Notes under the pieces: generated by a model
The model's input: the letters and a program-made list of their open reading frames with translations, nothing else
Databases searched by the model: none
Told to the model about the DNA's origin: nothing
Position numbers and translations under genes: made by a program
DNA from: Nitrospira sp.
GTDB taxonomy: Bacteria; Nitrospirota; Thermodesulfovibrionia; UBA6902
Assembly: GCA_016784355.1 (NCBI GenBank)
Contig: JADHUV010000002.1
Location: forward strand, 1 to 64,000
Length of the DNA: 64,000 nt
Reading direction: 5' to 3'
Part shown: positions 44,782 to 55,993 of the stretch, in pieces
How positions within the stretch are numbered: the first letter of the stretch is position 1
How the letters are laid out: the number at the start of each line of letters is the position of its first letter

Positions 44782-45756
44782 TCATGGTATTACCTTGGTT
44801 ATTTTAATTGCCTGATTCCCCCTGCTCACGCCTGGCAGACCTTTAAACTTAGTTGTACCTTCAACCTTAATATCAAGTTCATCAGTCACCGACCTGTTCA
44901 ATTTAATTATATTGCCAACCTTAAAATTCAAGATATCCTGAAAATTAAGCATACGTTTACCAATTTCAACACTGATATTTACATTCGTATCACTCAAAGC
45001 CTTCTCCATAACCTGCATCCACCTCTTGTCAGTCTCAAACTTATCGCCATGAATACCTGAATACAACTTCTCTTTGACCGGTTCAATAATGGAATAGGGT
45101 ATGCAAAAGAAAAGTTTCCCTGCAAAATCCTCAATCTCTATCAATATCTCTATATTAATAACGATTTCTGCCGGGGTCACGATCGTTACAAACTGGGGAT
45201 TAATTTCTGAACCTATAAATTCAGGTTCTATCAGAGCAATTCCGGCCCAGGCTTCTGCCAGAGATTCAAGTCCTATATTTACAACCTTCTGAATAACCTT
45301 CTGTTCGATTGCAGTGAATGCTCTCCCCTCAGACTTGATATGCTTCGCACTTGACCCGCCAAAGAAAAACTCAATTATCGCAAAGACCAATGGAGCCTCA
45401 AGTACTAGCAACGCGTAACCTTTCAGAGGTTTCATCTTAAATATATTAATACTGGAAGGGACAGGAATTGTCTTGATAAAGTCACCAAATTTAATAACAT
45501 CAACATTCTGTATGCTGATGTCTATAAACTTCATAAGTAGAGTAGATATATGGCTTCTAAAAATCCTGGCAAATGATTCATTGGCCATTTCAAGTCCCGG
45601 CATCCTACCTCGGACAATACGCTCCTGACTGGTAAAGTCAAACGGTCGCACGCCGGACATTATCTTTTCCTTCGCTTCCTCCGTATCAATATCCCCGGAT
45701 GCAACCCCTCTCAGTAGAGCATCTACCTCATCCTGTGAAAGTACTTTATCGCTCAT
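44782..45756 (-). CDS. fliM: Flagellar switch protein FliM
   Basis: The N-terminal peptide VLSQDEVDALLRGV is the CheY-P-binding motif. The CheC-like middle domain and C-terminal SpoA domain (ISVEIGKRMLNFQDILNFKVGNIIKLNR) follow. Length 324 aa is normal. It receives the signal of the CheY proteins encoded in this window. It overlaps fliL by 4 bases. Confidence 0.97.
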   Translation of the reverse strand: MSDKVLSQDEVDALLRGVASGDIDTEEAKEKIMSGVRPFDFTSQERIVRGRMPGLEMANESFARIFRSHISTLLMKFIDISIQNVDVIKFGDFIKTIPVPSSINIFKMKPLKGYALLVLEAPLVFAIIEFFFGGSSAKHIKSEGRAFTAIEQKVIQKVVNIGLESLAEAWAGIALIEPEFIGSEINPQFVTIVTPAEIVINIEILIEIEDFAGKLFFCIPYSIIEPVKEKLYSGIHGDKFETDKRWMQVMEKALSDTNVNISVEIGKRMLNFQDILNFKVGNIIKLNRSVTDELDIKVEGTTKFKGLPGVSRGNQAIKITKVIP

Positions 45757-46244
45757 TGCATTACAAACTCAGTAAAATAAAGATTTTTAAAAATATCATT
45801 TTCAAGCCCCAGTATCTGATTAGCCCGGAAAAGGATCTCATCTTTCAGCTGAAACTTGCCCTCCGGACTGGCAATAGAATTCAGTGGCTTGCTGCTAACC
45901 AGGGTAATTATGGTATCCCGCAGTTGAGGTGTTTTTGTCTGCACATCCTCAAGCATAGACTCCTCAGCAATTTCAAACTGAATTGAAACCTTCAGATACC
46001 TGCCCTGATCTTTCAGATTTAAAACAAAAGGATCAAGCGCCATAATGGCCGTCTTTGACTTTTTCTTCTCTGACTCTGCTTCCTCAGTCTTTTCTTCACC
46101 ACCGGACATCAGCTTAAATCCTACAAACCCTCCAGCAGCAAGCACGATTACTACTACAGCAATAATAATTATCAACATTTTATTGCCCTTTTTAGGTGGG
46201 GCCTCTTTAGTCTCTTCCTGAGACTCCTCATTTTCCTCTGCCAT
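45753..46244 (-). CDS. fliL: Flagellar basal body protein FliL
   Basis: A short charged N-terminus, one membrane helix (MLIIIIAVVVIVLAAGGFVGF) and a periplasmic domain with LDPFVLNLKDQGRYLKVSIQFEI and VQTKTPQLRDTIITLVSSKPLNSIASPEGKFQLKDEIL match FliL. It supports stator function. It is the first gene of the long fliL-to-fliA run behind a sigma-54-like site. Confidence 0.95.
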   Translation of the reverse strand: MAEENEESQEETKEAPPKKGNKMLIIIIAVVVIVLAAGGFVGFKLMSGGEEKTEEAESEKKKSKTAIMALDPFVLNLKDQGRYLKVSIQFEIAEESMLEDVQTKTPQLRDTIITLVSSKPLNSIASPEGKFQLKDEILFRANQILGLENDIFKNLYFTEFVMQ

Positions 46245-46478: not shown

Positions 46479-46505
46479 TAAAGAATTATGCCCGTAATCC
46501 GATAT
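46479..46505 (+). promoter_or_regulatory. Sigma-28 promoter upstream of the first GGDEF gene
   Basis: TAAAGAAT (46479-46486), 11 bases, TCCGATAT (46498-46505) matches the FliA consensus well in both boxes and in spacing. It lies about 60 bases before the ATG at 46568. Confidence 0.65.
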
Positions 46506-46567: not shown

Positions 46568-47902
46568 ATGAGCACAAATTCAGATCTTGACGGACTAGAT
46601 TATAATATTTCATCTCTAGAGAAAAAAATATATATCATAGCGGATGAAGTTCTGGATATCCTTAAAAATCTTTCACATGAAAACCAGCAGCAGCTCAACA
46701 CTAAATTAATTGCAGAGAGAATGTTTATTAAGGATACAGTAAAGAAAATGTTGTCTGAAACTGGAACTGCGAGCAATGATCAAAGTGAATTTATTTTCAT
46801 GAAGGAAATCGCAAATAATGTACTGGACAGGTTCTCACAACTTGCCCCCCTGACCATGAACCCCGCTCTTAGTTCAATTAAAGACCGCCTCCATGACAAA
46901 TCTTATGTCGAAGATACGGCAGCATGGCTTGACTCGACAATTAAAATTGTAAAGAAATACTTCAACGATCTTGCTGATCGTAATACAGAGCTTGCAAACT
47001 TTATTGTATTAATTATGAAACACCTTGAAGACACTGAGTTGCACCTGGCCAGTGAACTATCTTTCCACCAGAGTAAATATACTGAGGATAGAACGTTTGA
47101 AAATGAAATATCCGTTAATATGAAAATGCTTAAACAAGACCTCCACAACACTAATGATATTGATGATCTGAAAAATGCAGTTATGGGTAAAATCGAAAAT
47201 ATTAATGTAGGTATTGAAAGAAAAAGAGAGCAGGATATGCTACGACTCAGAGAAACAGAAAGTACGCTTAATTCTATGGGAAGCCGTATAAAATCCATAA
47301 AATCAGAAGCAGATCAAATAAAAAAGAAGGCTGAAGAAATGGAAAAAGAATCCTTCACAGACAAGCTAACAGGACTGCAAAACCGCAAGTCATATGATCT
47401 GAAGTTACTTGAAACAATTGCGAACCTGAAAAGGTACGGAGTGAACTCTTCTTTGATGATCTGCGATATTGATTTCTTCAAAAAAATCAATGATACATAT
47501 GGGCATAAGGCAGGAGACCTTACCCTGAAGAAACTAGCCCTTCTCTTAAATGAAAAACTCCGAATTAATGATTTTATTTCACGCTACGGCGGGGAAGAAT
47601 TTACCGTAATACTTCCTCATACAACGCTGGAAGTCGCAAAAAAAGTTGCTGATGGCATAAGAGTTTATATTGATCAAGCCAAGTTTACTTATAAAAATGA
47701 ATCAATTCCAATCACTATTAGTATTGGTGTCAGCCAGTTCAGTAAAGACGATGATATAAATACTGTATTTGAAAGAGCTGATTCTGCCTTGTACCTGGCA
47801 AAAAATTCCGGCAGGAATAATGTAAAGACAGAGCAGGACTCATCACCGAGTGAAGAACACGCACATAAAACAGTGATATCTACCATACAAGGAACTAATT
47901 AA
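46568..47902 (+). CDS. Diguanylate cyclase (GGDEF) with long helical N-terminus
   Basis: Residues 1-260 are helical, ending in a coiled coil (about 215-262), with no signal peptide or membrane helix. Residues 262-425 form a GGDEF domain with DKLTGLQNR, the metal-binding ICDIDFFKKIND, the active-site GGEEF at 341-345, and the inhibitory RxxD (RIND, 332-335) five residues before it. It should make c-di-GMP and be product-inhibited. GGAGG precedes the ATG. A paralogue with a degenerate active site follows. Coexpression with flagellar and chemotaxis genes through sigma-28 suggests a role in motility control. Confidence 0.92.
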   Translation: MSTNSDLDGLDYNISSLEKKIYIIADEVLDILKNLSHENQQQLNTKLIAERMFIKDTVKKMLSETGTASNDQSEFIFMKEIANNVLDRFSQLAPLTMNPALSSIKDRLHDKSYVEDTAAWLDSTIKIVKKYFNDLADRNTELANFIVLIMKHLEDTELHLASELSFHQSKYTEDRTFENEISVNMKMLKQDLHNTNDIDDLKNAVMGKIENINVGIERKREQDMLRLRETESTLNSMGSRIKSIKSEADQIKKKAEEMEKESFTDKLTGLQNRKSYDLKLLETIANLKRYGVNSSLMICDIDFFKKINDTYGHKAGDLTLKKLALLLNEKLRINDFISRYGGEEFTVILPHTTLEVAKKVADGIRVYIDQAKFTYKNESIPITISIGVSQFSKDDDINTVFERADSALYLAKNSGRNNVKTEQDSSPSEEHAHKTVISTIQGTN

Positions 47903-47910
47903 TACTAGCC

Positions 47911-47938
47911 TAAAGGAATTATTTTTTATTACCGACTA
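47911..47938 (+). promoter_or_regulatory. Possible sigma-28 promoter upstream of the second GGDEF gene
   Basis: TAAAGGAA (47911-47918), 12 bases, ACCGACTA (47931-47938). The -10 box is weaker than the others, but the spacing equals that of the sites at 49430 and 57654. A hairpin lies between it and the gene. Confidence 0.4.
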
Positions 47939-47966
47939 TGATTGTAACAACAATACCATTCAATTA

Positions 47967-48010
47967 CCGGATTTTATATTCACCCAGAATTACAATTCCG
48001 GCATTTTTTT
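47967..48010 (+). terminator. Imperfect hairpin with T-run before the second GGDEF gene
   Basis: CCGGA (47967-47971) pairs with TCCGG (47997-48001), with partial pairing of the inner arms, followed by T7 at 48004-48010. It may end transcripts of the first GGDEF gene or attenuate entry into the second, whose ATG is only 30 bases downstream. Confidence 0.5.
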
Positions 48011-48039
48011 AGATTGGAGAAAAGGACGACTGGTTTATA

Positions 48040-49383
48040 ATGGGAAATACAGATAAAGATACCGCAATAGATCTTCATCCTGAGTTTATGGATAAAATTT
48101 CCATAATTGCTGATGAAGTACTTCAAATACTTAAAGAACTATCTGCCGAAAACAAGCATAAGATAAACAGTGCCCTTATTGTTGAAAAGATGGTAACTAA
48201 GACCTCTTTTAAAACACTGTTAAATACACTTCAGGAATCTCCTGAACTTGCCCCGCAAAAAACCTCAATCAGTCAGGAAGATAAAAATATAATATATAAG
48301 CGTGCCTTGCGAGATCTAGAAAAAACTGCTAAAACAAAGATTGCAACAATCCTGCCGCCCTTCCTGATTGATAAGTTAAGTAACTTAAATGATGGGGTTT
48401 CTGAAGACAACATCTCAAGCTTTCTGGACTCTCCTGTCAAGGTAGTCAAAACGTACATTGATTCCATACTCAGCAAAAACACAGAACTTGAAAATTTCAT
48501 GAAACAGACAATGACATATCTTTCCGAAACTGAAATGCAGCTTACTGGAGAGCTGAATTCCCAGCAGCAAAAATTCCAGGATGACAGCCGCTTTGAACAG
48601 AGTTTAAATACGAATATGAATATGATCAAAAAAGACTGTGTAGCATCCGCAAATATAGACAATATTAAAATAGCCTTAGTCAGTAAAATAGAAAATATTA
48701 ATACCGTAATAGTGCAGAAAAAAGAATGGGATACCATCCGTCTTAAAGAAACAGAAAAGACTTTGGAATCCATGAATAACCGTATGACAGAAATAAAACA
48801 GGAAGCTGACGATATAAAAAAGAATGCCTCGGAAATAGAGTATGAATCTGTTCGCGACAGCATGACAGGACTTTATAATAAAAAAGCATACGAACAAAAG
48901 ATAGAAGAAGTTCTTAGTGATGTTAAGCGATATAATGTAAAAGCTTCTTTAATTATATGTGACATTGATCGTTGCAAGTCAATTAATGATAATTTCGGAC
49001 ATAATGTAGGCGATCTGGCACTTAAGAAAATTGCGGCGCTTCTGCGCGAAAGATTAAGGGCAAATGATTTTATTGCACGATATGTGGACAATAAATACGT
49101 TGTAATTCTCAGACATACAGAAATAAAAAAGGCAATCAAGGCCGCCGACAGTATACGCGAGTATCTTGATAAAGCCATCATCTCATTCAGTCAAAAAAGA
49201 ATTCCCCTGTCACTGAGCATCGGCATAAGCAGCATTGAAAAAACTGACAATAGCGCTTCTGCTTTTGACCGGGCTGAAAAGGCCCTGCTACTTGCCAAAA
49301 AATCTGGAGGTAACGTGGTTAAATCTGAAAATGACGTTATCACCCGTAGCCGTGCAACAAGCAATAAAGCGGTGAAAATATAA
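48040..49383 (+). CDS. Degenerate GGDEF protein, paralogue of the upstream cyclase
   Basis: The 447-aa protein matches its neighbour over the whole length (ADEVLQILKELS against ADEVLDILKNLS; DSMTGLYNKKAYE; ICDIDRCKSIND). The signature GGEEF is replaced by VDNKY at 349-353, so cyclase activity should be lost. The allosteric RxxD motif is kept (RAND, 340-343). It may therefore be a c-di-GMP receptor, or a partner of the active copy through the shared N-terminal and coiled-coil regions. The gap between the two genes is 137 bases. Confidence 0.88.
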   Translation: MGNTDKDTAIDLHPEFMDKISIIADEVLQILKELSAENKHKINSALIVEKMVTKTSFKTLLNTLQESPELAPQKTSISQEDKNIIYKRALRDLEKTAKTKIATILPPFLIDKLSNLNDGVSEDNISSFLDSPVKVVKTYIDSILSKNTELENFMKQTMTYLSETEMQLTGELNSQQQKFQDDSRFEQSLNTNMNMIKKDCVASANIDNIKIALVSKIENINTVIVQKKEWDTIRLKETEKTLESMNNRMTEIKQEADDIKKNASEIEYESVRDSMTGLYNKKAYEQKIEEVLSDVKRYNVKASLIICDIDRCKSINDNFGHNVGDLALKKIAALLRERLRANDFIARYVDNKYVVILRHTEIKKAIKAADSIREYLDKAIISFSQKRIPLSLSIGISSIEKTDNSASAFDRAEKALLLAKKSGGNVVKSENDVITRSRATSNKAVKI

Positions 49384-49429: not shown

Positions 49430-49457
49430 TAAAGTAATTAATTTAATGTTCCGATAA
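49430..49457 (+). promoter_or_regulatory. Sigma-28 promoter upstream of the HEAT-repeat/cheR genes
   Basis: TAAAGTAA (49430-49437), 12 bases, TCCGATAA (49450-49457). Both boxes are close to the FliA consensus. It lies about 118 bases before the ATG at 49575. Confidence 0.6.
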
Positions 49458-49574: not shown

Positions 49575-50999
49575 ATGCATACATCAAAGTTAAAGAGCCT
49601 GATCAATAAACTGGGAAGTACAGATCCTTCAGTCAGGCGAGCTTCTGCTGAATCCCTCTCTGAAGGGGATGAGAGGGCCATATATCCGCTTATAAAAAGT
49701 CTCCGGGATGATAACTTAGGGGTGCAGGATGCGGCAATGCGTTCACTGATGGCTATCAAGGGAGAAACTACTGCGTACATGGTACTGCCGCTTCTTCGCG
49801 AAAATGCTTTACTAAGAAATACGGCTTTAATTATCCTTAAGGAGATGGGGGAAACAGCCGTTCCACTCCTTAGTATCCTGTTAAATGACAGAGATGACGA
49901 TGTAAGAAAATTCGCAATAGACCTTATTCATGACATTCAGTACTGCGACTATCCTGAAAAACTTGTTGTAATGCTTATAGAGGATACTAATGTAAACGTA
50001 AGAGCTGCGGCTGCAAAAACGCTGGGAGCTCTGCAATATACTGAGTCTATTCAACTACTAATTGAAGCATTAAAGGATGAAGAATGGGTAGCTTTTTCTG
50101 CACTTGAAGCACTCACCCTCTTTAATGATGATTCTTCAATTGATCCCATTATCAGATTAATCGATCATTTTTCCGATACTATTAGATTTGCCGCAATAGA
50201 AGCCTTAGGAAAAATCGGTAATCCAAAGGCAACCCCCAGACTTCTTGAGTTCTTAGCAAAAGCAGAGGGATTTGAAAAAATGGTCACGGTTAAAAGCCTC
50301 GTTCAGATAGGTGATATCGAAAAAGCACCCGAGGTAAAGGGTATCCTCTATGATATGCTAAAAGAAAGTGAGTGGGACGATAAAATAATAGCAATACAAG
50401 GGCTCGTAGCGCTGAATGAAAGCGCTTCCATACCCCAAATGATGGACATCGCCGGAGAACTGGATATGTCTCACCCTGACCATGAAGACTATATTTACAT
50501 GATCCGGGATGCAATTATCGGTTTTGGATGCAACAAACACCTGTTAAATATCCTGAAAAATGAATCGATGCGCTATAAGGGTAAAGTGATGGCCATAGAG
50601 ATAGCCGGAACCATAAGATGTGCAGAAGCCGTGCCTTACCTGATTAACCTTCTTAACAGTGAGTATAGAGATGTTAAACGCTCCTGTATTAAATCACTCG
50701 GTGAGATAAAAAATGATGAAGCTCAAACATACCTTATGATGGCAATAAAAGACGAGGACAGTCATGTAAGAAAATCAGCAGTTAGTGCCCTCGGCAGCAT
50801 AAGTGATATGAGTGCCTTTGAGCCTCTGATGAATATGCTCCACCAGGAAATTTACAATGATGTAATCGATGCGTTTATTTGTGCGTTAATTCATATAAAT
50901 GAAGAACTTTTCATTTCACGTATAAGTGAATTTAGTGAAAATATAAAAAACCTTGTAAGTGATCGTGTTAATGGTTTCAATCCGGAGATTTCATGCTGA
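49575..50999 (+). CDS. HEAT-repeat protein of the chemotaxis operon
   Basis: The whole 474-aa protein is built of HEAT/PBS-lyase-like repeats about 31 residues apart (for example DPSVRRASAESLSEGDERAIYPLI, DVRKFAIDLIHDI, NVRAAAAKTLGALQYTESIQLLIEAL, TIRFAAIEALGKIGNPKATPRLLEFL, HVRKSAVSALGSISDMSAFEPLMNML). No signal peptide or enzyme domain is seen. It overlaps cheR by 7 bases and stands behind a sigma-28-like promoter. Such solenoids bind protein partners; a scaffold for CheR or for the array is a guess. The other common role, bilin-lyase-like proteins, is unlikely here. Confidence 0.8.
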   Translation: MHTSKLKSLINKLGSTDPSVRRASAESLSEGDERAIYPLIKSLRDDNLGVQDAAMRSLMAIKGETTAYMVLPLLRENALLRNTALIILKEMGETAVPLLSILLNDRDDDVRKFAIDLIHDIQYCDYPEKLVVMLIEDTNVNVRAAAAKTLGALQYTESIQLLIEALKDEEWVAFSALEALTLFNDDSSIDPIIRLIDHFSDTIRFAAIEALGKIGNPKATPRLLEFLAKAEGFEKMVTVKSLVQIGDIEKAPEVKGILYDMLKESEWDDKIIAIQGLVALNESASIPQMMDIAGELDMSHPDHEDYIYMIRDAIIGFGCNKHLLNILKNESMRYKGKVMAIEIAGTIRCAEAVPYLINLLNSEYRDVKRSCIKSLGEIKNDEAQTYLMMAIKDEDSHVRKSAVSALGSISDMSAFEPLMNMLHQEIYNDVIDAFICALIHINEELFISRISEFSENIKNLVSDRVNGFNPEISC

Positions 51000-51814
51000 A
51001 AATGCTCCTATCAGACTCCACTTTCAAAGATCTGCGTAATTATATATACGATATAAGCGGAATATATATCGCTGATACAAAAAAATATCTTATTGAGAGC
51101 AGACTCTCCAGAATACTTCAGGAAAAAAAATTGACCTGCTATGAAGACTATTTTAAAATGCTAAAAGTAGGAATTAATGGCAATGAATTATCGCGTCTGT
51201 TTGATGCTGTAACAACAAATGAAACTTATTTTTTCAGGGAGCCTCATCAGTTTGAATTACTTTTAAATACTTTGTTTCCTAAAATTATGCAGGAGAGTCC
51301 GGGGAAGAAAATCAAAATATGGTCAGCTGCCTGCTCCACTGGTGAAGAACCATACACCATGGCAATGATGCTGAATGAAAAATTCCGTAACCTGAGCAAT
51401 GTGGAGATATATGCTTCTGATATTAGCGAAGGGGTACTCTCCTCTGCTAAAAAAGCCATGTACAATTCATATTCTGTCCGCAATGTACCTGAAAATTATA
51501 TGAAGAAATACTTTTCACCCAATGGACAGATGTTTGACCTTAACCCCACGATTAAACAAGCAGTTAAGTTTATGAAGATAAATCTGATAGATGATAAGAA
51601 TATCCGAAATGCCAGAGGTGTAGACATTATCTTCTGTCGCAATGTTCTTATTTATTTTGATGTCAATGCAAAGCAAAAGGTTGTATCAAACTTATATGAT
51701 AACCTAAATCCAGGAGGCCGTCTTATAATTGGTTCATCCGAAAGCCTTCATAATATTACAAGAGCATTCAGGCCGCATATAGACAATAAAGTAATTGTTT
51801 ATCATAAGGTATAA
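50993..51814 (+). CDS. cheR: Chemotaxis methyltransferase CheR
   Basis: The small N-terminal helical domain is followed by the Rossmann methyltransferase domain: VTTNETYFFREPHQFELL, IKIWSAACSTGEEPYTMAM, GVDIIFCRNVLIYFD and GGRLIIGSSESL. It methylates receptor glutamates using SAM. Length 273 aa is normal. It overlaps the HEAT-repeat gene by 7 bases, so both are probably translated together. Its antagonist CheB is encoded at 56583. No receptor gene is in the window. Confidence 0.95.
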   Translation: MLKMLLSDSTFKDLRNYIYDISGIYIADTKKYLIESRLSRILQEKKLTCYEDYFKMLKVGINGNELSRLFDAVTTNETYFFREPHQFELLLNTLFPKIMQESPGKKIKIWSAACSTGEEPYTMAMMLNEKFRNLSNVEIYASDISEGVLSSAKKAMYNSYSVRNVPENYMKKYFSPNGQMFDLNPTIKQAVKFMKINLIDDKNIRNARGVDIIFCRNVLIYFDVNAKQKVVSNLYDNLNPGGRLIIGSSESLHNITRAFRPHIDNKVIVYHKV

Positions 51815-51881
51815 TTATGGATATTTTCATATTAATCATGATGACTGCAGAAGAAATAAACATGATAGGTGAGGTTTCATC

Positions 51882-52274
51882 ATGAAAATTATGATTGTTG
51901 ATGATTGTCAAACAACAAGAAAACTCTTGGGACACTACCTTAAATCCAGGGGATATTCTGTAGTATTTGCAGAAAACGGACTTGATGCAATGGAAAAATT
52001 AGGAACAGATAATGTCAATCTCATAATGACAGACCTGAATATGCCGTTTATGGATGGTATGGAACTGATAAAAACACTAAGAGCAGATCCTAACTGGTCA
52101 GACATTCCAATCCTCATGGTGACCACTGAAAATGATACTCATGAGAAAGATAAGGCACTTAGTTTAGGGGCAAATGGTTATGTAGTCAAGCCTGTAACTG
52201 GAGATGCCATAGCAAAAAATATAAAATCAATCATCAAACAGATGTTTGGAAAAGGAGGACGGGAAAGTGACTGA
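51882..52274 (+). CDS. Single-domain response regulator, CheY-like (first copy)
   Basis: A receiver domain of 130 aa with the acidic pair DD at 7-8, phospho-acceptor Asp at 51 ([11 protein letters not shown]), a Thr in MVTTEN and the Lys in VVKPVTG. It ends without an output domain. The C-terminus overlaps the next cheY by 8 bases. The kinase is presumably the CheA encoded at 52693. Which of the two proteins binds FliM cannot be decided from sequence; the second looks closer to classical CheY. Confidence 0.9.
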
Positions 52275-52656
52275 TTTAAAGATTAAAATACTTGTGGTAG
52301 ATGATTTCTCAACAATGCGAAGAATAGTAAAGAACCTTCTTAAGCAGCTAGGCTACGAATCTATTGATGAAGCTGAGGACGGGGAGCAGGCATATATCAA
52401 ACTTCAGAACGGTAACTATGGTTTTGTTATCAGTGATTGGAATATGCCCAATCTTGATGGGCTTTCACTTCTAAAAAAAATTCGAAGTGATCCAGCTATG
52501 AAAGACCTTCCCGTGCTGATGGTTACTGCTGAGGCAGAAAAAGATAAGGTCATAACTGCAATCCAGGCAGGCGTTAATAACTATGTTGTCAAACCCTTTA
52601 CGGGGGAAGTTTTGAAAGAAAAGATCGATAAAATATTTGATAAGATTTCTACATAA
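52267..52656 (+). CDS. cheY: Chemotaxis response regulator CheY (second copy)
   Basis: The receiver domain has [20 protein letters not shown], phospho-acceptor Asp 57 ([11 protein letters not shown]), switch Thr in [10 protein letters not shown] and Lys in VVKPFTGE, all very close to classical CheY. I place the start at GTG 52267, eight bases after AAAGGAGG, rather than the TTG at 52246. It overlaps the preceding cheY by 8 bases. Phospho-CheY should bind FliM and reverse the motor. Confidence 0.93.
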
Positions 52657-52692
52657 ATCTTAATTTTTAATATGTGATTATGGAGTTATAGA

Positions 52693-54642
52693 ATGTCTGA
52701 TGAATCTGATGAAATGGAAGAGATCATATCGGAGTTTATTACCGAGGCGGAAGAATCTCTTGACAGGATAGAACCGTTATTTGTTGAACTCGAACAAGTC
52801 GGGGAAGACAAGGAAATGCTCAATGACATCTTCAGGTCGATGCATACGATTAAAGGTGCCGCTGGATTCCTAGGATATCAGAGCATTGTTGATGTTGCGC
52901 ATACATCAGAAAGCATAATGAAAAAGCTCCGTGATGGTGAAATATCAGTTTCCACGGACATGATGGATGTTATTTTACAGGCGGTTGATATGCTAAGAAT
53001 ACTGCTTGGACATCTAAAAGACCATGATGGCATTGAGGAGGATGTTTCCCCTCTTGTTCGTGACCTCGACACAGCTCTTGTTAATGCGATTTCTGCACGT
53101 TCTGATATTACGCCTACAGCACTGGACGAAGCACCAGTAAGTGCGGAAGCGCCAGACGCAGTACCAGTGGAAGCGCCGGCAACTATTGACCCTTTCGCTG
53201 CAGCTGCAGCAGAAATTGAGGCAATAGACGCAGATGAGCCTAAAGGCCCCTCTATGTCAGATGATGCACTTGAAGCCGCATTAGAGGCAGCACAGGCAAT
53301 GAGAGATGCCGAAACATCTACGGTAGAAGAGATTAAGCATGATATCCCTGCTGCTATTAAAGTAGATCCGCCCGAAAATGCACAAGCACCTCTTATTGCA
53401 AAGGCAACTGTTGAGAAAGCTCCTAAGCCAAAAGACAAACCGCAGAACCTCAGGGTTGATGTAGAGCGTATAGATAAAGTTATGGATCTTGCTGGAGAGG
53501 TTGTGCTTGTCAGAAACAGGCTCCTGAATATATCTAATTATTTTGATCAGAAATACGCAAATGATCCTCAGACTGAAATACTAACGGAAACAGTCTCTTT
53601 TCTTGACCGCGTAACATCTGATATGCAGTTAGCGGTCATGAGAATGCGAATGCAGCCCATTAATAAAGTATTGAGCAAGTTCCCAAGATTCGTGCGTGAC
53701 ATGTCAGCATCACTTAGCAAGGATGTGGAACTTGAAATTCAGGGAGAAGGTACTGAAGTTGATAAAACCGTAATTGAAAATATCGGTGACCCTCTTACGC
53801 ATATTCTTAGAAATTCCATAGACCATGGACTGGAGTCAACTGAAGACAGATTAGCAAAAGGCAAACCAGCCAAGGGAACAGTAAAGATCAACATTTTCCA
53901 AAAAGGCAACCAGGTAGTAATTGAAATCAGCGATGACGGCAAGGGCATTGATATTGAAAATTTGAAACGCCTTGCGGTTCAAAAAGGCATTATGACTTCT
54001 GAAGAAGTGAAAAATTTAACTGATGATGCGGCCACAGATATTATATTCATGCCAGGATTTTCCACAAAAGAGGTCGCTACTGAACTAAGCGGCAGGGGTG
54101 TGGGAATGGATGTAGTTAAAACAAATATATCATCTCTGAACGGTTACGTAGAAATCACTACTGAAAAGAACGTAGGAAGTACATTCCGTATATGTATCCC
54201 TCTTACCCTTGCAATTATTCAGGCCTTAATGGTTGAGGTATCAGGATTGAAATATGCAATACCGCTTTCACCTATTGAAGAAACACTTAAGGTTTCCAAA
54301 GATCAAATTGAAAATATTACAGGACAAAATGTAATAGTTATCAGAGATAAAGTTTGTCCTCTGTTTGAGCTTAACACTCTGCTTGGACTGAATTATAATG
54401 GCGACAAAAGCAGCAACTCTGATTATAAACACCTCATAGTAATATCTATGGGAGAGAAGCGTTTCTGCATCGCTGTTGATAAATTGGTTGGTCAGGAGGA
54501 AGTGGTTATTAAGCAACTTAAAGGCATCGATACTACTTCTTCTTATGTGCTTGGTGCAACCATAACAGGCGATGGCAAAGTGGTGTTTATTTTGGATGTA
54601 GGTGCCATGTCAAGAAATCTGCTGGGTAGCAGCAAGACATGA
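52693..54642 (+). CDS. cheA: Chemotaxis histidine kinase CheA
   Basis: Domains in order: P1 phosphotransfer domain with the phosphorylated His 51 (MHTIKGAAGFLGY); a long Ala/Pro/Glu-rich linker (about 130-250) with no recognisable P2; P3 dimerisation helices (VDKVMDLAGEVVLVRNRLL); P4 ATPase (HILRNSIDHGLES, EISDDGKGID, GFSTKEVATELSGRGVGMDVV); P5 CheW-like domain to the C-terminus. It phosphorylates the CheY and CheB proteins of this locus. Absence of P2 would mean direct P1-receiver contact. Confidence 0.95.
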   Translation: MSDESDEMEEIISEFITEAEESLDRIEPLFVELEQVGEDKEMLNDIFRSMHTIKGAAGFLGYQSIVDVAHTSESIMKKLRDGEISVSTDMMDVILQAVDMLRILLGHLKDHDGIEEDVSPLVRDLDTALVNAISARSDITPTALDEAPVSAEAPDAVPVEAPATIDPFAAAAAEIEAIDADEPKGPSMSDDALEAALEAAQAMRDAETSTVEEIKHDIPAAIKVDPPENAQAPLIAKATVEKAPKPKDKPQNLRVDVERIDKVMDLAGEVVLVRNRLLNISNYFDQKYANDPQTEILTETVSFLDRVTSDMQLAVMRMRMQPINKVLSKFPRFVRDMSASLSKDVELEIQGEGTEVDKTVIENIGDPLTHILRNSIDHGLESTEDRLAKGKPAKGTVKINIFQKGNQVVIEISDDGKGIDIENLKRLAVQKGIMTSEEVKNLTDDAATDIIFMPGFSTKEVATELSGRGVGMDVVKTNISSLNGYVEITTEKNVGSTFRICIPLTLAIIQALMVEVSGLKYAIPLSPIEETLKVSKDQIENITGQNVIVIRDKVCPLFELNTLLGLNYNGDKSSNSDYKHLIVISMGEKRFCIAVDKLVGQEEVVIKQLKGIDTTSSYVLGATITGDGKVVFILDVGAMSRNLLGSSKT

Positions 54643-54748
54643 TAATGTGCTGCATGCAAAATAATAAACACATATTTTACAAGGCTTTTATAAAAATGAA
54701 TACACAGTCCCTGCCCGATCTAGTCTGTTTTAATATTAGGAGAATACA

Positions 54749-55993
54749 ATGCAGCAGTTTATAGGTTTCCATATTAATTCAAGTGAATACATGATCCCGA
54801 TCCTGAGAGTGCGTGAAATCATTACTATGCCTGCCATAACCAAGATGCCACACCTGCCGGATTATATTAAAGGCATTACAAATCTTCGCGGCACTGTAAT
54901 ACCGATCGTTCAGCTTAAGAGTCTGCTTAATACTCCGGACAACGGAGAAGACGGAAATACTATAATTGTTCTTACCTTAGGCAAAATTACATTTGGTATT
55001 ATTATTGACGGCATTTCAGGCGTTCTGCAAATAGATGAAGCTAATATTGACCCCCCTGAAGGCTTCATAAATGATAATGTCGATCTGATGCTGGGAGTAG
55101 CAAAGATTAACGGTAAGCTTGTTGTCTTACTTGATACAAAAAAACTCCTTCCTCTTGATGACCTTGCAATGCTTGATGAGACAGTCCTCGATGTGCAGGA
55201 ATCAGAGGACGGCTTAAGTGTAGAGGTAACAACAGAAGTTGATACTATCGGTGGCAAGGTATCGATTAAAGAGCTAAGGGATGCAAAGGATTACTTTAAA
55301 AATAAGGACACGGAATCCTCCTCTTCACCAGATTCACAAGCGAAAATTTTCGATCTTATGTTGTCATTTATGGAAGCAATGTCCGTTCATGATTACACGA
55401 AGGTGGAAAGTCTGGTCGCTCAACTTGTCAAGGAGACCGACAGCGGTCTTTTCAAGGAAGTGGGCAAGGTAACCAGAAAACTCCATGATTCGCTCGAAGA
55501 GTTCAAGGGTTCAGTGGATACAGGCCTGGCAAAAATTACTGAAACGGATGTGCCAAATGCCGTTGACAAATTACAGTTTGTTATGGAAAAAACAGAGGAT
55601 GCTGCCAATAAGACCATGGCAATAGTAGAGAGTTATTTTGAGGAGTCAGACGACTTTCAGAAACATCTTGATGCGCTTCAGGGTAGTGAAGAGAGTAAGG
55701 AATATATTAAACTTTTCAAAGACTCTCTTGATAATAATATGACTATGATTTTGACAGCACAGCAATTTCAGGATATTACCGGACAGACTATCAGAAAAGT
55801 AATACACCTTGTGAACAAGGTAGAGACAGAACTCCTTCGACTGATAACCCAGTTCGGAATGCCTGTGACAGGTGAAGGAACTGCAGTCAGTGTCCCGACT
55901 GCTAACTATGACGCCGAGCTTGGCACAACAGAAGACCATGAGAAAATTACACAATCAGATGTAGAATCATTGCTTAATGATTTTGGTTTTTAA
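54749..55993 (+). CDS. CheW-CheZ fusion protein
   Basis: Residues 1-140 are a complete CheW domain (FIGFHINSSEYMIPILRVREI, PDYIKGITNLRGTVIPIVQL). After a linker, residues about 195-370 form a CheZ phosphatase helical hairpin: VGKVTRKLHDSLEEFK, VPNAVDKLQFVMEKTEDAANKT and the active-site FQDITGQ (340-346), with Asp 342 and Gln 346 matching E. coli CheZ Asp 143 and Gln 147. The last residues (SDVESLLNDFGF) resemble the CheZ C-terminal peptide that captures CheY-P. The CheW part should anchor the phosphatase in the receptor-CheA array. Both halves look functional. Stand-alone CheZ is the usual form. Confidence 0.9.
   Translation: MQQFIGFHINSSEYMIPILRVREIITMPAITKMPHLPDYIKGITNLRGTVIPIVQLKSLLNTPDNGEDGNTIIVLTLGKITFGIIIDGISGVLQIDEANIDPPEGFINDNVDLMLGVAKINGKLVVLLDTKKLLPLDDLAMLDETVLDVQESEDGLSVEVTTEVDTIGGKVSIKELRDAKDYFKNKDTESSSSPDSQAKIFDLMLSFMEAMSVHDYTKVESLVAQLVKETDSGLFKEVGKVTRKLHDSLEEFKGSVDTGLAKITETDVPNAVDKLQFVMEKTEDAANKTMAIVESYFEESDDFQKHLDALQGSEESKEYIKLFKDSLDNNMTMILTAQQFQDITGQTIRKVIHLVNKVETELLRLITQFGMPVTGEGTAVSVPTANYDAELGTTEDHEKITQSDVESLLNDFGF

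Follow-up and report, generated by a model that had tools for sequence, protein, structure and literature searches.

In Escherichia coli, the protein CdgI combines a degenerate A-site with an intact I-site, binds c-di-GMP and makes contacts with several GGDEF domains, and its N-terminal domain is common to active cyclases of the same species (DgcT/DgcX), as described in the part of the CdgI report drawn on here (PMC5635695). PopA of Caulobacter and SgmT of Myxococcus are GGDEF proteins with a degenerate A-site in which, according to the portion of the report considered, the RxxD motif makes the protein a c-di-GMP receptor serving localisation (PMC3509222). Among the open-licence PMC papers searched, none was found that joins Thermodesulfovibrionia with diguanylate cyclase, and none that uses the term DGCcoil. 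Here we compare these systems with two neighbouring GGDEF genes, A and B, of a Nitrospirota genome.

A tandem GGDEF pair between flagellar and chemotaxis genes

The window, which is the whole stretch of 64,000 nucleotides that was analysed, holds the two genes in tandem. Gene A (46568..47902, + strand) encodes a protein of 444 aa with a helical/coiled N-terminus and a GGDEF domain carrying GGEEF and RIND, and is predicted to be an active diguanylate cyclase. Gene B (48040..49383, + strand) encodes 447 aa of A-like architecture, with VDNKY replacing the GGDEF signature and RAND kept, and is predicted to be catalytically dead. The original prediction had given A the motifs GGEEF and RxxD, and B the sequence VDNKY at the place of A's signature with RAND retained; it agrees on both proteins with the open reading frame of A, where RIND precedes GGEEF, and with the aligned column, which is the same for B. 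It had also aligned the two proteins from end to end. Their identity is 43% over 418 aa (BLASTP, E 8e-114) and the Pfam GGDEF model (PF00990, cut-off 23.8) scores 150.8 bits in A and 122.4 bits in B, values that exclude chance as the source of the homology. In both proteins the first ~265 residues are helical and the GGDEF domain follows at the C-terminus. The end-to-end alignment stands, with good identity in the long coil (125-268; 65/144 identical) and the GGDEF domain (82/162) and one weak stretch at residues 79-124 of B, where identity is 4/41.

The order of a coil followed by a GGDEF domain is also found in DGCcoil (PF20975) cyclases. With a cut-off of 26.7 bits, PF20975 gives B 15.8 bits, which is under the cut-off, and gives A no match at E 0.01; of 23 family members, 17 match it at E <=1 (lowest E 7.1e-9), and one relative of the window's proteins (L061:9996) passes at 35.7 bits. 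The gammaproteobacterial relatives measure about 600 aa and reach 82-126 bits (5/5 scanned), whereas the A/B family is shorter and its first ~90 residues lie outside the part matched by PF20975. The first ~60 residues (about 14-65 in B, window 48079-48234, and their equivalents in relatives) look like a helix-turn-helix, and 10 of 23 members give a weak match to Pfam Put_DNA-bind_N (PF06971; best E 0.0015). For B, AlphaFold predicts a GGDEF fold with confidence (pLDDT ~90). The model aligns with solved GGDEF domains at Z 20-25 in a comparison that barely covered the N-terminus; the best match is 3ign (Z 24.9, with 165 residues superposed at rmsd 1.6), and the GGDEF domain of the model matches c-di-GMP-bound GGDEF structures (3ign).

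The chemotaxis neighbourhood of the original prediction is confirmed, and flagellar genes lie on the other side of the pair. The divergent neighbour fliL (45753..46244, - strand) is the first gene of a fliL-fliM-fliN-fliO-fliP-fliR-flhB-flhA run. On the other side, a HEAT-repeat protein gene (49575..50999, + strand) opens the chemotaxis run, which continues through the conserved downstream context of cheR, two single-domain CheY genes, cheA and a CheW-CheZ fusion (50993..55993, + strand) to cheW and cheB. The order fliL(-)/DGC/[DGC]/HEAT/cheR/cheY/cheY/cheA/CheW-CheZ/cheW/cheB recurs in most of the genomes whose contigs extend far enough to show it. Several neighbours are of interest in their own right. 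The HEAT-repeat gene keeps its place at the head of the chemotaxis run throughout the family and has its own sigma-28-like promoter, while the CheW-CheZ protein (window 54749-55993) joins an N-terminal CheW domain (115.6 bits) to a CheZ-like domain (117.8 bits, both Pfam), an arrangement that recurs at the locus in most relatives. Beside the flagellar genes, at ~59-26475 of the window, lies a run that resembles nucleotide-sugar/sialic-acid-type synthesis together with radical SAM enzymes; judged by first residues only, these genes may perhaps serve flagellin glycosylation.

Sigma-28 control of the pair had been suggested as well, and the suggestion fits A better than B. A sigma-28-like promoter of A (TAAAGAAT-N11-TCCGATAT; 46479..46505, + strand) begins 89 bp before the ATG and scores 20/24, a score reached in 0/200 shuffles, and the site of the HEAT/che genes (TAAAGTAA-N12-TCCGATAA; 49430..49457, + strand) scores 21/24, being judged by score alone. 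The site before B (TAAAGGAA-N12-ACCGACTA; 47911..47938, + strand) is weak, at 18/24 and p 0.11, which is not significant. Across the family, 28 of the 39 ORFs with enough upstream sequence have a sigma-28-like site at p <=0.05 against base shuffles, and FliA and FlgM are both encoded within the window. A sigma-70/terminator scan gave fewer promoter-like sites than shuffled sequence, and none of its terminator-like sites is on the + strand in the gap that separates the two genes or downstream of B.

The family and the residues replaced in B

Relatives were sought with B as query against 61 genomes and with A as query against 47 from the order. Full-length relatives occur in 25 genomes, all from the taxonomic family of the window, in which 12 of 37 genomes are without one; G055, whose match to B is confined to the GGDEF domain, stands outside the 25. 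The matching public records are labelled as uncultured Nitrospirota of the class Thermodesulfovibrionia, largely groundwater/subsurface MAGs, and a scan of viral contigs returned only generic GGDEF domains at 25-37% identity. From 34 stretches and the window, 40 family ORFs were extracted, 38 of them full length; the fragments L093, which carries GGEEF, and L094, which ends before the signature, were omitted from the tree and the counts, and a remnant of 141 aa in G018, below the score limit, lies outside the 40. The genome of the window also holds a third full-length paralogue with an intact signature (L077:9271-10563, contig C88), away from the flagellar locus.

Among the 38 full-length members in the 25 Nitrospirota genomes, B is the sole one without GG[DE]EF, a signature present in A and in 36/36 of the remaining members, and hence in 37/37 proteins other than B. 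In its own genome, where one short contig-end fragment was omitted from 30 GGDEF matches, B is the most degenerate of the 29 domains compared and the only one whose signature is wholly lost, the modified signatures elsewhere being CGDEF, VGDEF, GADEF and GEEEF. With PleD positions derived from the alignment, B has replaced the equivalents of G368, G369, E370, E371, F372, F331 and R446; in 37/37 other members these seven columns are G, G, E/D, E, F, F and R/K. The two signature glycines have become Val and Asp and the R446-equivalent has become Gly; in PleD, the former belong to the phosphate-binding turn and the latter contacts phosphate. From this pattern of replacement, catalysis by B is judged very unlikely, and its loss is the firm step in what follows.

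The equivalents of D327, K332, N335, D344, K442, R359 and D362 are retained. The Mg Asp is thus among the residues kept, and the first five of these positions are those that contact guanine and Mg in PleD. It could be hypothesised from these five that B has become an allosteric domain which still binds GTP after catalysis has gone; we consider this highly improbable, given that Val and Asp stand at the glycines of the phosphate turn and Gly at the phosphate-contacting Arg, if the residues have the roles of their PleD equivalents.

The RxxD motif of B sits five residues ahead of the signature, and its R and D are invariant in the 37/37 other members. The Arg residues R297 and R373 are retained as well, the latter lying two residues beyond the position of PleD R390, which is part of the secondary I-site. 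At the R390 position itself B has Ser, and Arg occurs there in 0/38 family members, against 17/29 GGDEF domains of the same genome. Because this Arg is absent throughout the family, the I-site of the whole family is, as far as the alignment tells, different from the full PleD type. Retention of RxxD was considered as a signal of selection and dropped: where conserved columns are those with the same residue in at least 94% of the other members, B keeps 42 of 58 conserved GGDEF columns anyway, so that two or three kept I-site residues carry no signal. Binding of c-di-GMP by B is possible on this evidence, and RxxD by itself is insufficient to make B a receptor.

These residues bear directly on the idea, close to the c-di-GMP sensor of the original prediction, that B is a receptor of the PopA/SgmT type, which would bind c-di-GMP at RxxD and relay this via its coil to a partner in the flagellar or chemotaxis apparatus, A not being needed. 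The combination of a degenerate A-site with an intact RxxD, R297 and R373 is consistent with it, and there are parallels in SgmT and, as cited there, PopA, which bind c-di-GMP via the I-site in the portion of that report considered (PMC3509222), and in CdgI, which also binds c-di-GMP in the part of its report drawn on (PMC5635695). However, the family-wide invariance of RxxD and the 42 retained columns leave nothing special in its retention by B, and the family is without the Arg that many GGDEF domains of the same genome have at the R390 position. We regard a receptor role as a tentative possibility.

History of the pair and constraint on B

The original prediction had seen in B a duplicated cyclase. 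In the tree, A falls in one deep clade and B in the other, and a recent tandem duplication was rejected by the AU test, in which sisterhood of A and B has a p-AU of 1.8e-5. The branch of B is long (1.21 against a median of 0.28), which makes its position unsure; when placement inside the B clade was compared with placement at the base of the A side, the latter had a p-AU of 0.37. The separation of the A and B lineages seems to predate that of the genera in their taxonomic family, and a simple local duplication is not supported.

The search for the pair in relatives, which the original prediction had proposed, returned adjacent pairs in five other genomes and the dead signature in this genome only. 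In G007 a gene of the A kind is followed by one of the B kind, as in the window, in G027 the order is reversed, and in G035 and G010 both copies are of the B kind; the second gene of the pair in G018 is an in-frame remnant of 141 residues without the catalytic core. Two more genomes (G023 and G034) have the A kind and the B kind on separate contigs. Both copies keep the signature in G007, G010, G027 and G035, that is in four of the five other genomes with adjacent pairs; for this reason the dead state of B is, to judge from the genomes compared, a change that befell a single lineage within an old arrangement, and the system does not in general require a dead partner. The G018 remnant (L111:6457-6882) owes its length of 141 aa to two internal deletions, both in frame, with edges that resemble short shared words, and has sigma-28-like sequence upstream; the core may truly have been deleted, or the assembly may be at fault. 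With the A clade defined as a clade of 11 tree rows, and with 4 of the 25 genomes without a B-kind gene, presence of an A-clade gene gave no significant association with a dead B: dead or core-deleted genes occur in 2/8 genomes with both kinds and in 0/13 with the B kind only (p ~0.13, computed by hand).

The changes in B are unevenly distributed. B differs at 16 of the 58 conserved GGDEF columns and at 1 of 23 in the N-terminus (Fisher p 0.031, which is modest), while the three next most diverged members are free of this bias, with 15 GGDEF and 14 N-terminal changes between them (Fisher p 0.003 against B). The mean identity of B to the family is unremarkable for the N-terminus (z -0.95), and for the GGDEF domain it ranks last of all 38 (z -4.3). 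In neutral simulations in which 26-30% of residues were changed, with today's B as the starting sequence, indels ignored and mutation biases assumed, 0 to 1.4% of runs were stop-free. Under neutral decay the frame of B would probably have been lost. From these indirect statistics we conclude that the protein has apparently been kept, constraint having been lifted from catalysis and not from the N-terminus.

It could also be supposed that B is a decaying gene left without function after the A copy took over. Its long branch, the 16 conserved GGDEF positions lost, the weak promoter match and the core-deleted remnant at the same place in G018 would all suit such a fate, but the frame of 447 codons is intact, 22 of the 23 conserved N-terminal columns are kept, neutral change to the level of B seldom leaves a stop-free frame, and the GGDEF fold is predicted with confidence. 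We consider decay unlikely.

Possible action of B on A and comparison with known systems

A diguanylate cyclase works as a dimer, with one GTP for each GGDEF domain. We propose, with a probability of roughly 0.5, that B is a maintained pseudo-cyclase whose action runs through its N-terminal coil, A being the most likely partner. B would make no c-di-GMP itself and would act through the helical/coil region common to it and its active paralogue. A chain of B would pair with one of A via this coil, and since each GGDEF domain of a cyclase dimer must bring one GTP, such a mixed A:B dimer would yield no product; in the role of a dominant-negative or scaffolding partner, B would thereby reduce or modulate what A makes at the flagellar/chemotaxis site. 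Feedback could be added if the RxxD of B binds c-di-GMP. Both the pairing and this feedback are steps that we infer. Heterodimerisation is plausible from the common coil, the partner model fits the selective keeping of the N-terminus of B, and the conservation of the locus together with the other adjacent pairs suggests it further. As a counterpoint, A and B are old paralogues, so that the two coils could have evolved away from contact with one another, and B 79-124 has an identity of 4/41 to A.

A stronger form of the partner model would make A and B a dedicated heterodimeric and self-limiting source of c-di-GMP, in which the dead subunit sets the output of A and reads the product via RxxD; this we find doubtful. 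Such a module, tied together by the common coil and standing beside the chemotaxis proteins, would go back to two old paralogues of which one ceased to be catalytic. Should B indeed act on A, c-di-GMP signalling at the flagellar/chemotaxis site would offer here a compact example from nature of a live enzyme controlled by its pseudo-enzyme sister. The family also offers a natural comparison, as the same place holds one live gene, two live genes, a live and a dead gene, or a live gene and a core-deleted remnant.

Among the described systems, CdgI is a close precedent for the partner model, and PopA and SgmT illustrate the alternative, in which such a domain serves as a receptor. B differs from CdgI in its place in a Nitrospirota flagellar/chemotaxis locus and in its N-terminal domain, which in CdgI we take to be the membrane-bound MASE1. 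In the part of its report drawn on, CdgI resembles B in its degenerate A-site, intact I-site and N-terminal domain common to active cyclases of the same species, but is not described as standing in tandem with an active paralogue (PMC5635695), whereas B adjoins A. PopA is a response regulator and SgmT a hybrid kinase, as far as the portion of the source considered goes, while B has a helical coil as its N-terminus and is without the secondary-site Arg; among the features of the PopA/SgmT/CdgI type, B has the degenerate A-site and RxxD and does not have Arg at the PleD R390 position. Dead partners are already known from other bacteria, and the dead GGDEF paralogue beside a live one described here is a new example.
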